A stretch of DNA of 64,000 nucleotides from Arenibacter certesii DSM 19833. GTDB lineage: Bacteria > Bacteroidota > Bacteroidia > Flavobacteriales > Flavobacteriaceae. Location of the stretch: the NCBI RefSeq assembly GCF_000429545.1, contig NZ_AUCB01000010.1:62001-126000 (forward strand), given 5' to 3'. The notes beneath the pieces were generated by a model. That model saw only the letters and a list, made by a program, of their open reading frames with translations. It did no database searches and was not told the origin of the DNA. The position numbers and the translations under genes are program-made. Below, piece after piece: positions 23,132 through 58,963 of the stretch (the stretch's first letter is position 1; every line of letters starts with the position of its first letter).

Positions 23132-24460
23132 ATGGTAAAGCAACATGCAGCAAAGGGCAGTAGAAAATTGTTGAATGCTTGGGCATTTTATGATTGGGCA
23201 AACTCGGTTTATAGCCTAGTAATTACTTCGGCAATATTTCCCATTTTTTATGGGGCCTTGTTCCGAATGGCTGAAGTAGAAAAAGTAACGGTCTTTGGTG
23301 GTGAAATAGCGAGGGCTCCCTTAATTAGTTACGTAACGTCTGCCGCTTTTTTTTTTATAGCGGTGCTCACACCAATTGTATCTGGCATTGCGGATTATTT
23401 GGGCAATAAAAAGCTTTTCATGAAATTCTTCTGCTATCTGGGCGCACTCTCCTGCATTGGTCTGTATTGGTTTTCTTTAGAGCAAATCTACATGAGCTTA
23501 GCCTGTTATTTCTTTGGATTGGTGGGGTTTTGGATCAGCTTAGCTATAAATAACTCATACTTGCCAGATGTCGCCTTCCCAGAGCAACAAGATAAAATTA
23601 GTGCAAAAGGATTTTCTCTTGGATATGTGGGCAGCGTTCTTTTATTACTCTTTAACCTAGCAATGGTGATGAATCCAGATGTTTTTGGAATAGAATCTGA
23701 TGCAGGGGGAGTTGCAGAAGTGAAAGCGATGCGGTATTCTTTCCTTACCGTTGGGATTTGGTGGGTACTATTTGCCCAATACACCTTTTATTTTCTACCG
23801 CAAGGTTTTCGGAAAGAAGGAGAAAGGCAGAATATTGTCCTCAATGGCTTTAGGGAACTTAGGGGTGTTTGGCATCAATTGGGAAATCGGGTGAAATTGA
23901 AGCGTTATCTGGCAGCTTTTTTTGTATATAGTATGGCGGTACAAACGGTTATTCTGATTGCAACTTATTTTGGGGAAGAAGAAATAAAATGGGGTGGGGA
24001 CAGTGAACGAACCATGGGGCTTATTATTAGTATTCTCGTTATACAGTTGGTTGCCATTGCTGGAGCTACATTAACGGCTAGGATGTCTGGATGGCTGGGG
24101 AATATTAAGACCCTTATTATTATAAACCTGCTATGGATGGCAATATGCATATATGCATATTTTGTAGTTACCCCTACTGATTTCTATTTCGCTGCAGGAT
24201 GTGTAGGATTGGTGATGGGAGGGATACAGGCTCTTTCTCGTTCTACCTACTCTAAATTCCTTCCGGAAACTACGGACACCACTTCTTTTTTTAGTTTCTA
24301 TGATGTTGCCGAGAAAATTGGAATCGTTATAGGTACTTTTATCTACGGATATATAGCCCAAGTCACTGGTAGTATGCGAAATGCTCTTATATTTTTAGGG
24401 ATCTTCTTTCTGGTTGGCGCCCTTTTATTGACAAGGGTAAATAAGGTACAGAAGACTTAA
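23132..24460 (+). CDS. MFS transporter, UMF1/Atg22-like
   Basis: The protein has 442 residues and about twelve membrane segments. The N-terminal block LLNAWAFYDWANSVYSLVITSAIFP and the later QALSRSTYSKFLPETTDTTSFFSFYDVAEKIG are signatures of the UMF1 (Atg22-like) branch of the MFS. In yeast Atg22 exports amino acids from vacuoles; the bacterial substrate is unknown. The gene starts just 10 bp after the upstream terminator. Confidence 0.9.
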   Translation: MVKQHAAKGSRKLLNAWAFYDWANSVYSLVITSAIFPIFYGALFRMAEVEKVTVFGGEIARAPLISYVTSAAFFFIAVLTPIVSGIADYLGNKKLFMKFFCYLGALSCIGLYWFSLEQIYMSLACYFFGLVGFWISLAINNSYLPDVAFPEQQDKISAKGFSLGYVGSVLLLLFNLAMVMNPDVFGIESDAGGVAEVKAMRYSFLTVGIWWVLFAQYTFYFLPQGFRKEGERQNIVLNGFRELRGVWHQLGNRVKLKRYLAAFFVYSMAVQTVILIATYFGEEEIKWGGDSERTMGLIISILVIQLVAIAGATLTARMSGWLGNIKTLIIINLLWMAICIYAYFVVTPTDFYFAAGCVGLVMGGIQALSRSTYSKFLPETTDTTSFFSFYDVAEKIGIVIGTFIYGYIAQVTGSMRNALIFLGIFFLVGALLLTRVNKVQKT

Positions 24461-56771: not shown

Positions 56772-57125
56772 ATGAAGCTTTTTTCAAAAATATTCGCATT
56801 TATATTTGCCTTCCTCTTTATTTGGTCAGCCGTTCTACAATATAATGATCAGGATGCATGGTTATGGTATGCTATCTATGGTAGTGCTGCACTGGCCTCT
56901 ATATTCTTTGTTTTTGATAGATTGCTTTTATCGATAGGAGTGTTCCTCTCCTTTTTGTATTTGATAAGTAGTTATATTTTTTGGCCAGAAAAATACGAAG
57001 GTGTGTCTATAGGAGGTGGAGATATAAATAATATTGAGCGTGCAAGGGAGTCTCTAGGGCTTTTGATAAGTGCTATGGTAATGCTTTTCTATGCGTGGCG
57101 AATCAAATTAAGTAGAAAAGCTTAA
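56772..57125 (+). CDS. TMEM220-like small membrane protein
   Basis: The protein has 117 residues with four membrane segments. The start FIWSAVLQYNDQDAWLWYAIYGSAAL matches the TMEM220 family. It begins 1 bp after the eboF stop, so it belongs to the same transcript as the ebo genes. Its stop overlaps the stop of the convergent dnaX gene by 4 bp, leaving no room for a terminator. Function unknown; a link to the ebo pathway is suggested by position only. Confidence 0.85.
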   Translation: MKLFSKIFAFIFAFLFIWSAVLQYNDQDAWLWYAIYGSAALASIFFVFDRLLLSIGVFLSFLYLISSYIFWPEKYEGVSIGGGDINNIERARESLGLLISAMVMLFYAWRIKLSRKA

Positions 57126-58963
57126 ATATCTAGATCAAACTCTTTTCTTAGCAAGTCAATTGCTGGGTTCTTCTCCCGTAGTTTAAGGTACTTTTCCTCA
57201 GGGGTAAATGCGAATTTTTTAGCTGTAGTTTCGTTTACCGTTATATCTAAAGTGATAAAGTGGTTGTGAAGCTTTAATTTTAAGTATTCCATTAAGTCAT
57301 ACTTTTCCCGCTCCACTTCCTTTTTCATTGTGTCATTGGGCAATTCAATCCAAATTACAAAGTTTTCTTTTAATTTAGGGAGATCGGCATTTAAATTGGA
57401 TGCCAGTATTTTACGTCCTTCTTTATCTATTATGTCAACAAATTCGGCCCAATGCTTTCGCAGTTCCTGTTCGGTGAAAACCGAATTTGGCAAACTACTT
57501 TCATCTATTATCTCTTCTTTTTTATTGAGTTGATGTTCCTTTTTGGCCTTTAGGCTAGACAAACTAAGACCAGATACCCTTTTTTTACCTGCCTTTAAGT
57601 CGATCTGAATTCTTTTAGTCTCAGCATCCTGAGTTTCCTGAGGCTTTGCTATACTGCTTTGTGCCGTATGTTCTTCTGTTAGAGTAGGGGCAGGGGCAGA
57701 TGTGGAAGCACTCGCTGTTTGTATACTTTGTGGCTTCGCTTTCTGGGTTGGAGCAATTTGTGGAGCATTTCCTTCAGCGGATTTTTGATTTGTAGGCGCC
57801 TTTGGCTCTGTGACCTTATTATGGTTAACTCGGTAAAAAGAAGCAGGAATTATAAAATCTGGACGACCTCTACCAGGTCCTAAGTGTTTAGACTTTTTTT
57901 TTTCTCCATCAAAGTCGATGGAGGCTAATTTCATTAGGGTCAGTTCTACTAGTAATCGCTGATGCTTACTGCTCTTGTATTTTATGTCGCAGTCATTGGC
58001 AAGGTCTATAGCTTCCAAAAGGAATGAGCCCGATGGTTTTTGTGATTGCTCTAAGTATTGTTTTTTTGCTTCCTCACCAACCTCTAATAGTGGAATGGTA
58101 TTTTGATGCTTGCACACCATTAAATCCCTAAAATGGGAAGCTAATCCAACAATAAAATGATGGCCATCAAAGCCTTGGGCCAATGTTTCGTTGAACAAGA
58201 CTAAAAGACCTGGAATATCCCGTGCCAAAATAAGATCGGTAGCCTTAAAATAGGTGTCGTAATCTAAAACGTTTAAATTCTCGGTCACCGCTTTTCTGGT
58301 TAAGTTTTTACCAGAAAAACTAACAACCCTATCAAATATCGAAAGGGCGTCGCGCATAGCGCCATCTGCTTTTTGAGCAATAATGTGCAAGGCGTCGTCT
58401 TCAGCATTTATCTGTTGACTTTCGGCAATATATCTTAAATATTCTGCTGTATCCTTTACTGTAATTCGTTTAAAATCAAAAATCTGACAGCGAGATAGAA
58501 TAGTAGGGATTATCTTGTGCTTTTCAGTGGTGGCCAAAATAAAAATGGCATGGGCTGGCGGTTCTTCCAACGTCTTTAAAAAGGCGTTAAATGCCGCTTG
58601 GGACAGCATGTGGACCTCATCAATAATATATACTTTGTACTTCCCTACTTGCGGTGGAATCCGTACTTGGCTAGTAAGCTCTCTAATATCGTCTACCGAG
58701 TTATTGGATGCGGCATCCAGTTCAAAAATATTGAAAGCAAAGTCCTCATCTTCTGATGCTTCTCCTTGCTGATTGATCTGTTTTGCCAAGATTCTAGCAC
58801 AGGTAGTTTTTCCTACCCCTCTAGGACCGGTAAATAATAATGCCTGCGCCAAATGATTGTTTTCAATGGCGTTCGTTAAAGTATTGGTAATAGCCTGCTG
58901 CCCCACTACATCCTTGAATGTTTTAGGTCTATATTTCCGAGCAGATACTATAAAAGGTTCCAA
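57122..58963 (-). CDS. dnaX: DNA polymerase III gamma/tau subunit
   Basis: DnaX loads the sliding clamp and ties the polymerase to the replisome. From a TTG at 58961-58963 the protein has 613 residues (EPFIVSARKYRPKTFKDVVGQ); the earlier ATG at 59035 lies upstream of a -7 box. Walker A GPRGVGKTTCAR, Walker B YIIDEVHML, sensor TTEKHKIIPTILSRCQ. The four zinc-binding Cys of most DnaX are missing between Walker A and FNIFELDAASNN. An A10 run covers residues 354-357, at the end of the collar region. The following Pro/Gln/Ala-rich linker and C-terminal domain form the tau-specific part. Confidence 0.95.
   Translation of the reverse strand: MEPFIVSARKYRPKTFKDVVGQQAITNTLTNAIENNHLAQALLFTGPRGVGKTTCARILAKQINQQGEASEDEDFAFNIFELDAASNNSVDDIRELTSQVRIPPQVGKYKVYIIDEVHMLSQAAFNAFLKTLEEPPAHAIFILATTEKHKIIPTILSRCQIFDFKRITVKDTAEYLRYIAESQQINAEDDALHIIAQKADGAMRDALSIFDRVVSFSGKNLTRKAVTENLNVLDYDTYFKATDLILARDIPGLLVLFNETLAQGFDGHHFIVGLASHFRDLMVCKHQNTIPLLEVGEEAKKQYLEQSQKPSGSFLLEAIDLANDCDIKYKSSKHQRLLVELTLMKLASIDFDGEKKKSKHLGPGRGRPDFIIPASFYRVNHNKVTEPKAPTNQKSAEGNAPQIAPTQKAKPQSIQTASASTSAPAPTLTEEHTAQSSIAKPQETQDAETKRIQIDLKAGKKRVSGLSLSSLKAKKEHQLNKKEEIIDESSLPNSVFTEQELRKHWAEFVDIIDKEGRKILASNLNADLPKLKENFVIWIELPNDTMKKEVEREKYDLMEYLKLKLHNHFITLDITVNETTAKKFAFTPEEKYLKLREKNPAIDLLRKEFDLDI
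57865..57903 (-). promoter_or_regulatory. candidate dnaX frameshift/slippage site (A10 plus downstream hairpin)
   Basis: In the message the codons GAA AAA AAA AAG make ten A (57894-57903). One extra A, or a -1 shift, gives AAA GTC TAA, an immediate stop and a 358-residue product. Loss of one A gives a stop five codons later. Fourteen bases after the run, GACCT (57875-57879) pairs with AGGTC (57865-57869) around GGTAG. This resembles the gamma-making sites of other bacteria. Confidence 0.6.

Follow-up and report, generated by a model that had tools for sequence, protein, structure and literature searches.

The dnaX locus

The 64,000-nt stretch of DNA analysed here (the window) carries dnaX on its minus strand at 57122-58963, a gene of 613 codons plus stop in the tau frame that starts with TTG at 58963; the mechanical open reading frame (ORF) reaches beyond this start, to 59035. 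The product matches the NCBIfam model PRK14971 (DnaX gamma/tau) above cut-off and end to end, over residues 1-613, and AAA and DNAX lid domains are recognized in it by Pfam. The NCBIfam model of the gamma core, dnaX_nterm, stops at residue 346, and a run of ten A's (A10; 57894-57903, minus strand), the proposed slippage site, follows in GAA AAA AAA AAG, codons 354-357. An earlier note on this DNA had placed the run where the conserved ATPase/collar region ends and had pointed to close stops in both other frames, and both statements hold. An extra A or a -1 shift leads through E-K-K-K-V to TAA (57888-57890, minus strand) and to a predicted gamma of 358 residues, as the note had it. A lost A or a +1 shift leads through E-K-K-S-L-N-T to TAG (57880-57882, minus strand); here the note was right about the stop but counted five codons to it, whereas there are four after the last lysine, giving a predicted gamma of 360 residues. 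Tau is in frame with the gamma part, unlike in the two-ORF dnaX genes of Antonov et al. (2013).

Two hairpins flank the run on the same strand. The upstream one, CTCCATCG-ACTT-TGATGGAG (57904-57923), has an 8-bp stem and a 4-nt loop and adjoins the run with no spacer, the 5' arm being at 57916-57923 and the 3' arm at 57904-57911. Its RNA form, CUCCAUCG-ACUU-UGAUGGAG, folds directly 5' of A10 with -9.7 kcal/mol (z -4.86). The sequence GATGGAG, singled out by the note in front of the run, is there, and it is best read as part of this 3' arm; the note did not mention the hairpin itself. The downstream hairpin, GACCT-GGTAG-AGGTC (57865-57879), has a 5-bp stem.

Sites of at least nine A's or T's number four in the window, dnaX included (six overlapping matches, against a shuffle mean of 11.2). 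A second run of ten, at 23347-23356 on the minus strand, reads as T10 in the coding strand of an ORF of 443 codons. The whole genome (5.0 Mb) has 23 sites of at least ten A's, against about 199 extrapolated from the dinucleotides of the window. Ten of the 23 sites fall within ORFs of 80 codons or more that read along the strand carrying the A's. Among these ten, only in dnaX does a stem of 6 bp or longer end no more than 3 nt from the run; at the other nine, with runs of 10-12 A's (L439, L442, L449, L453, L454, L456, L457, L460 and L464), no such stem was found. These nine are possible further slippage sites. Locus L445, outside any such ORF, also has an 8-bp stem, mostly of A-T and G-T pairs. 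A long A run alone is not unusual; what exceeds chance is its conservation at one place in dnaX.

Sequences compared

Matches to dnaX were obtained in 18 of 18 genomes of the window's genus, 148 of 149 of its family (one per genus), 141 of 146 of its order, 147 of 149 of its class and 146 of 148 of its phylum; the 80 loci named individually were the top matches among at least 594. A further 199 regions were fetched in addition to the loci that the searches supplied, and the resulting 420 rows came to 402 once identical sequences were removed. This pool is not a random sample: it is made up of the 80 named loci, best-match loci and chosen regions, mostly one per genus or family. The family set consists of 147 of the 149 genomes, G058 (an N-terminal hit at a contig end) being left out and G133 having no match. 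Loci L177 and L361, which are cut near the run, were left out of register scoring (counted in, they would raise the in-frame and +1 totals given below to 267 and 13), and the table that lists best matches only was left out of the counts of split genes. Since genera are not independent, binomial p-values on per-genus counts are too small.

Conservation of the run and of the flanking stops

In a programmed site, the earlier note reasoned, the run should recur in related dnaX genes at synonymous positions together with the near stops. Comparison of the relatives showed that both are kept. At least nine A's are present in 146 of the 147 family genes, one per genus (4 A9, 127 A10 and 15 A11); the loss of the run among relatives, which the note had named as counting against its proposal, is not what was found. 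In the wider, uneven pool the run has at least nine A's in 371 of 402 genes and exactly ten in 312, and its share in the order (42/47), class (54/63) and phylum (11/17) indicates that it thins out with distance.

The codons that make up the run are constrained beyond the general usage of these genes. In phase-1 genes both full lysine codons are AAA in 136 of 136, while at ten other conserved lysine columns of the same genes AAA is used at a mean of 73% and at most 87%. The N-terminal parts of the 147 genes (155,370 nt) contain zero runs of nine or more, and the downstream parts (80,154 nt) contain two, one A9 and one A11. The run is kept even in high-GC genes, in 19 of 29 at GC 0.5-0.6 and in 5 of 8 above 0.6. 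In 143 of 146 genera (97.9%) stops close both non-tau frames no more than ten codons from the run; the corresponding rates are 36.7% for 4380 control positions downstream in the same genes and 36.9% for 5292 in their N-terminal parts. Judged by these controls, the conservation of the run in dnaX is not a matter of chance.

The shifting register of tau

Tau is not always encoded in frame with the gamma part. Of 369 scorable genes, 266 have it in frame, 91 in -1 and 12 in +1, making 103 split genes. Five named Flavobacterium loci are all split, four in -1 and one in +1. At least 56 register changes, 52 of them between in-frame and split, were counted on a 402-tip FastTree tree, a number that tree errors would inflate. 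Within the window's genus, 5 of the 18 genomes have a split dnaX, and a careful tree gives four register changes among the 18; if the in-frame state is ancestral, three of these were to -1 and one to +1. All combinations of run phase and register are found in the pooled genes, so the shift is independent of codon phase, and three frames combined with three run phases are fitted better by slippage of RNA polymerase than by a phased ribosomal shift. The frame change at the run would work in either direction and from any codon phase, the behaviour expected of polymerase slippage.

Of 13 pairs hand-picked within the window's genus, six that include a split gene gave dN/dS of 0.08-0.15 in the tau-specific part and four in-frame pairs gave 0.10-0.13; dS was saturated in the remaining three. 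Where tested in this genus, the tau part of split genes is under the same purifying selection. In 102 split genes the tau frame offers its first ATG at a median distance of about 107 codons past the run, and within 30 codons in only 6; with GTG and TTG also counted, the median is 54 codons. The distance of the first ATG, taken with the selection on the tau part, argues that tau is most simply made through a frame change at the run. As the genes stand, tau is unreadable in many relatives unless such a change occurs. The proposal of the earlier note that gamma is produced beside tau by a programmed event is strongly supported by the conservation of the run, by the stops and by this need for a frame change in relatives.

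The hairpin directly upstream of the run

The upstream hairpin was looked for only after a bias had emerged at the glycine codon that precedes the run, which is GGA in 93 of 108 genes against 30% elsewhere. A stem of 7-8 bp is present in all 18 genomes of the window's genus; 15 of 15 additional loci from two genera of the family, each of them a split gene, have one of 6 bp or more. Across the family, 115 of 146 genera have a perfect stem, 6 bp or longer, that ends no more than 3 nt from the run, and 31 lack it; the rate is 9.3% at control positions and 23.1% after random synonymous recoding, and 109 of the 146 genera beat 95% of their own synonymous recodings. The position is narrowly defined. 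Stems occur at gaps of 0, 1 and 2 nt in 69, 69 and 61% of genera and in less than 5% at gaps of 3-27 nt, with a lesser peak of 12-14% at gaps of 28-30 nt and single values of up to 11% downstream.

With the arms aligned in the main pairing, 80.2% of cells are paired; slid pairings give 33-54%, and when the arms were permuted among genera (500 permutations) at most 76.5% were paired. In a tree-based test of paired changes in the hairpin, slid pairings scored like the true pairing. Of the 58 genera with no GATGG in front of the run, 28 form a different stem at this position, again of 6 bp or more, with 27 different sequences; the corresponding rates are 8.9% at control positions and 17.3% after recoding. 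Variants changed on both sides include CTCTGTCA/TGACGGAG, CTCTCTC/GAGGGAG and CTCCATTA/TAATGGAG.

Outside the family the stem is scarce. A stem of at least 6 bp was found in 31 of 155 genes (20%), against 10% in both controls, though 41 of the full 155 score above 95% of their recodings, the recoding null using the codon usage of the window's family for these genes as well. The hairpin is not supported as a phylum-wide feature, and its scarcity outside the family means that the run does not require it. It looks like a refinement in Flavobacteriaceae rather than a requirement of the run. Within the family, A11 is commoner where the hairpin is absent (7 of 31 genera against 8 of 115, p 0.02), a link that is suggestive only.

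Elements of ribosomal frameshifting

The earlier note had drawn attention to the downstream hairpin. It is present in the window, folds little better than shuffled sequences and is not conserved: the 34 nt after the run give z -0.58, with 54 of 200 shuffles as good, and the 54 nt after it give z 0.40. Across the family the z-scores of downstream folding are a little below those of the controls (means of -0.36 and -0.13; below -2 in 8.9% against 5.5%), with no clear conserved 3' structure after the run in the family set. The downstream hairpin was rejected as a stimulator and is probably not part of the signal. A Shine-Dalgarno-like stimulator was likewise rejected, such a sequence being found at -18 to -5 in only 2 of 146 genera, against 3.9% in the control; when bases touching the run are included the count rises to 104 of 146, and what is then counted is GGAG of the hairpin arm. 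The heptamer A AAA AAG is in frame in the window, but only 18 of 122 in-frame phase-1 genes have AAG as their fourth codon, and the E. coli heptamer is optional in relatives. None of the features of an E. coli-type -1 site (a conserved A AAA AAG, a Shine-Dalgarno-like site, a 3' stem-loop) was found.

Two loci outside the family, L379 (genome G450) and L381 (G428), have no A run at the junction after dnaX domain III and encode tau in -1. Both have A AAA AAG TAG there, followed a few bases on by a stem-loop, one of 11 bp (-20.8 kcal/mol, z -0.25) and one of 14 bp (-28.0 kcal/mol, z -3.70). The pattern drawn from these two loci was found in them only, among 88 genomes of their family. In these two, slippage has apparently given way to ribosomal frameshifting. 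The ribosomal route is therefore probably open to the same gene, and a change of mechanism does not seem to remove the need for two products.

Alternative explanations

The shift could occur on the ribosome instead of the polymerase. A programmed -1 shift at A AAA AAG, the mechanism of E. coli dnaX, would suit the in-frame heptamer of the window, the predominance of -1 among the non-zero registers (91 of 369), the GGAG that adjoins the run in most of the family, and the two loci with A AAA AAG TAG and long stems in place of the run. It is nevertheless unlikely. A phased -1 event cannot serve the 12 of 369 genes that need +1, the run phase varies among genes, AAG is mostly absent from the fourth codon, the Shine-Dalgarno-like site and a clear 3' structure are missing at working positions, and ten A's exceed the needs of the heptamer. 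Sliding of the ribosome on homopolymeric A (Koutmou et al., 2015), perhaps aided by refolding of the upstream hairpin behind the ribosome, has in its favour that the excursions are described as going both ways and not as one phased step (PMC4363877). An upstream hairpin beside a shift site stimulates +1 and attenuates -1 shifts, also in a 70S system (PMC6321510). Sliding is less likely than slippage because robust product in an E. coli extract needed A11, with little at A9 or A10 (PMC4363877), whereas 127 of the 147 family genera have exactly A10; the zero spacing of the hairpin would, moreover, suit the exit channel of the polymerase better than the footprint of the ribosome. We regard it as improbable to about the same degree as phased -1 frameshifting.

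Two further explanations would do away with a frame change altogether. Homopolymers are error-prone in some sequencing methods, and tau is read straight through in 125 of 146 genera, so that the run might be no more than the usual EKK[KN] tail of an AT-rich gene, with sequencing errors or pseudogenes accounting for the split genes. This is very unlikely given the exclusive use of AAA at both lysine codons where 73% would be usual, the persistence of the run at high GC and the purifying selection on the tau part in the window's genus; the split state, moreover, is found in 15 of 15 sampled genomes of genus g128 and 15 of 15 of g240, and also in single-contig genomes such as G448, G497 and G517. 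The C-terminal part of tau in split genes might alternatively be a separate protein with its own start codon. Two ORFs are indeed present, and 8 of the 102 split genes have their first ATG, GTG or TTG no more than 15 codons from the run, but the start codons generally lie further off, as described above, and in 64 of the 102 an F-I-I-P-like motif that also occurs in in-frame genes follows the run by no more than 14 residues. This is the least probable of the explanations considered.

A model for slippage at the dnaX run

Transcriptional slippage at A10, aided by the upstream hairpin, is the explanation that we prefer: the run in dnaX would be a programmed slippage site through which one gene encodes both clamp-loader subunits (probability about 0.75). 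Of the two routes named in the earlier note, the E. coli-like and the Thermus-like, the evidence favours the latter, that is, slippage of the transcript. As the polymerase copies the run, the RNA:DNA hybrid would come to consist of ten rA:dT pairs, and the nascent RNA just behind the polymerase would fold into the CUCCAUCG/UGAUGGAG hairpin. The run would fill the hybrid as the hairpin emerges. Hairpin and weak homopolymeric hybrid together might then cause the transcript to realign, yielding mRNAs with 9, 10, 11 or more A's. In the window genome, messages with ten A's (plus or minus three) would be translated into tau, and those with other run lengths would meet TAA or TAG within a few codons and give a gamma of 358-360 residues.

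Because the polymerase would make all three frames, the frame in which the genome encodes tau should, on this proposal, hardly matter, and relatives could have moved into registers -1 and +1 without losing tau. In its most specific form, in which a nascent-RNA hairpin in Flavobacteriaceae slips the transcript at an A10 of hybrid length and the genomic frame is nearly neutral, having been flipped dozens of times across the phylum, the model has in our judgement a little better than an even chance of being correct.

Relation to known systems

The closest counterpart is the dnaX gene of Thermus thermophilus, in which transcriptional slippage occurs on A9 (PMC1088944, PMC5009743). The hybrid of the Thermus polymerase is 9-10 bp, and slippage at the run results in about 50% full-length product (PMC5009743). 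The two cases are alike in the gene, the A homopolymer, the in-frame tau and the close stops in both other frames; the window, too, has a homopolymer of at least nine A's at the end of the gamma part with near stops in both frames. They differ in the length of the run, A9 there and A10 here, and in the hairpin adjoining the run, which is noted in Flavobacteriaceae.

A stem-loop directly 5' of the slippery motif, the mark of stem-loop-mediated transcriptional slippage, is likewise present in the window. In a Roseiflexus insertion sequence (IS), a stem-loop in this position enables slippage (Penno et al., 2015; PMC5009743). The arrangement is the same, GCGGGCgcaaGCCCGC there and CUCCAUCG-acuu-UGAUGGAG here, but the Roseiflexus motif is T5C5, the event is a one-base deletion and the gene belongs to a mobile element, whereas here the motif is an A10 homopolymer in a replication gene. 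In E. coli, dnaX uses a -1 ribosomal frameshift on A AAA AAG with an upstream Shine-Dalgarno-like site and a 3' stem-loop (PMC3711429, PMC5009743). The same two products come from the same region of the gene, but that site and stem-loop were not found at working positions here.

Two-frame A10 genes have been described before. Antonov et al. (2013) listed 17 two-ORF dnaX genes from 12 genera, with a -1 transition and nine of them with A10, and proposed slippage (PMC3711429). Those genes are split and in -1 only, whereas the window gene is in frame, and the in-frame, -1 and +1 states interchange repeatedly in the present set. A gene with an in-frame A10 would go unflagged by a search for frame transitions. 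The main-text passages of that paper covered here contain no mention of an upstream hairpin, and in the open-licence literature, as far as its accessible passages go, no report was found of a hairpin adjoining the run, of an in-frame A10 dnaX or of register interchange in the phylum. Measured against that literature, the frame-neutral spread and the hairpin appear to be new.

If the model is correct, a mechanism described in Thermus and a small set of two-ORF genes extends to much of a large phylum, and a cellular gene would seem to combine a homopolymer with a hairpin on the polymerase side. It would also account for the broken look of many Flavobacterium and Chryseobacterium dnaX genes and give annotation pipelines a simple rule. 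Sister species with in-frame, -1 and +1 genes would serve as natural replicates for how the gamma:tau ratio is set.

Genes without the run and reduced genomes

The sole gene of the 147 in the family set without the run, L339 (G037), encodes tau in -1 after GAA AAG TAA and a 6-bp hairpin. Apart from this gene, L379 and L381, genes that lack the run have tau in frame, and these may make one product or produce gamma in another way. In a tiny genome (L387, G425; contig of 0.34 Mb) the dnaX frame ends directly after domain III with no long frame close downstream of it, and possibly gamma only is made. In a reduced genome of 0.6 Mb (L390, G540) the longest downstream frame is in +1 behind an A11 run.
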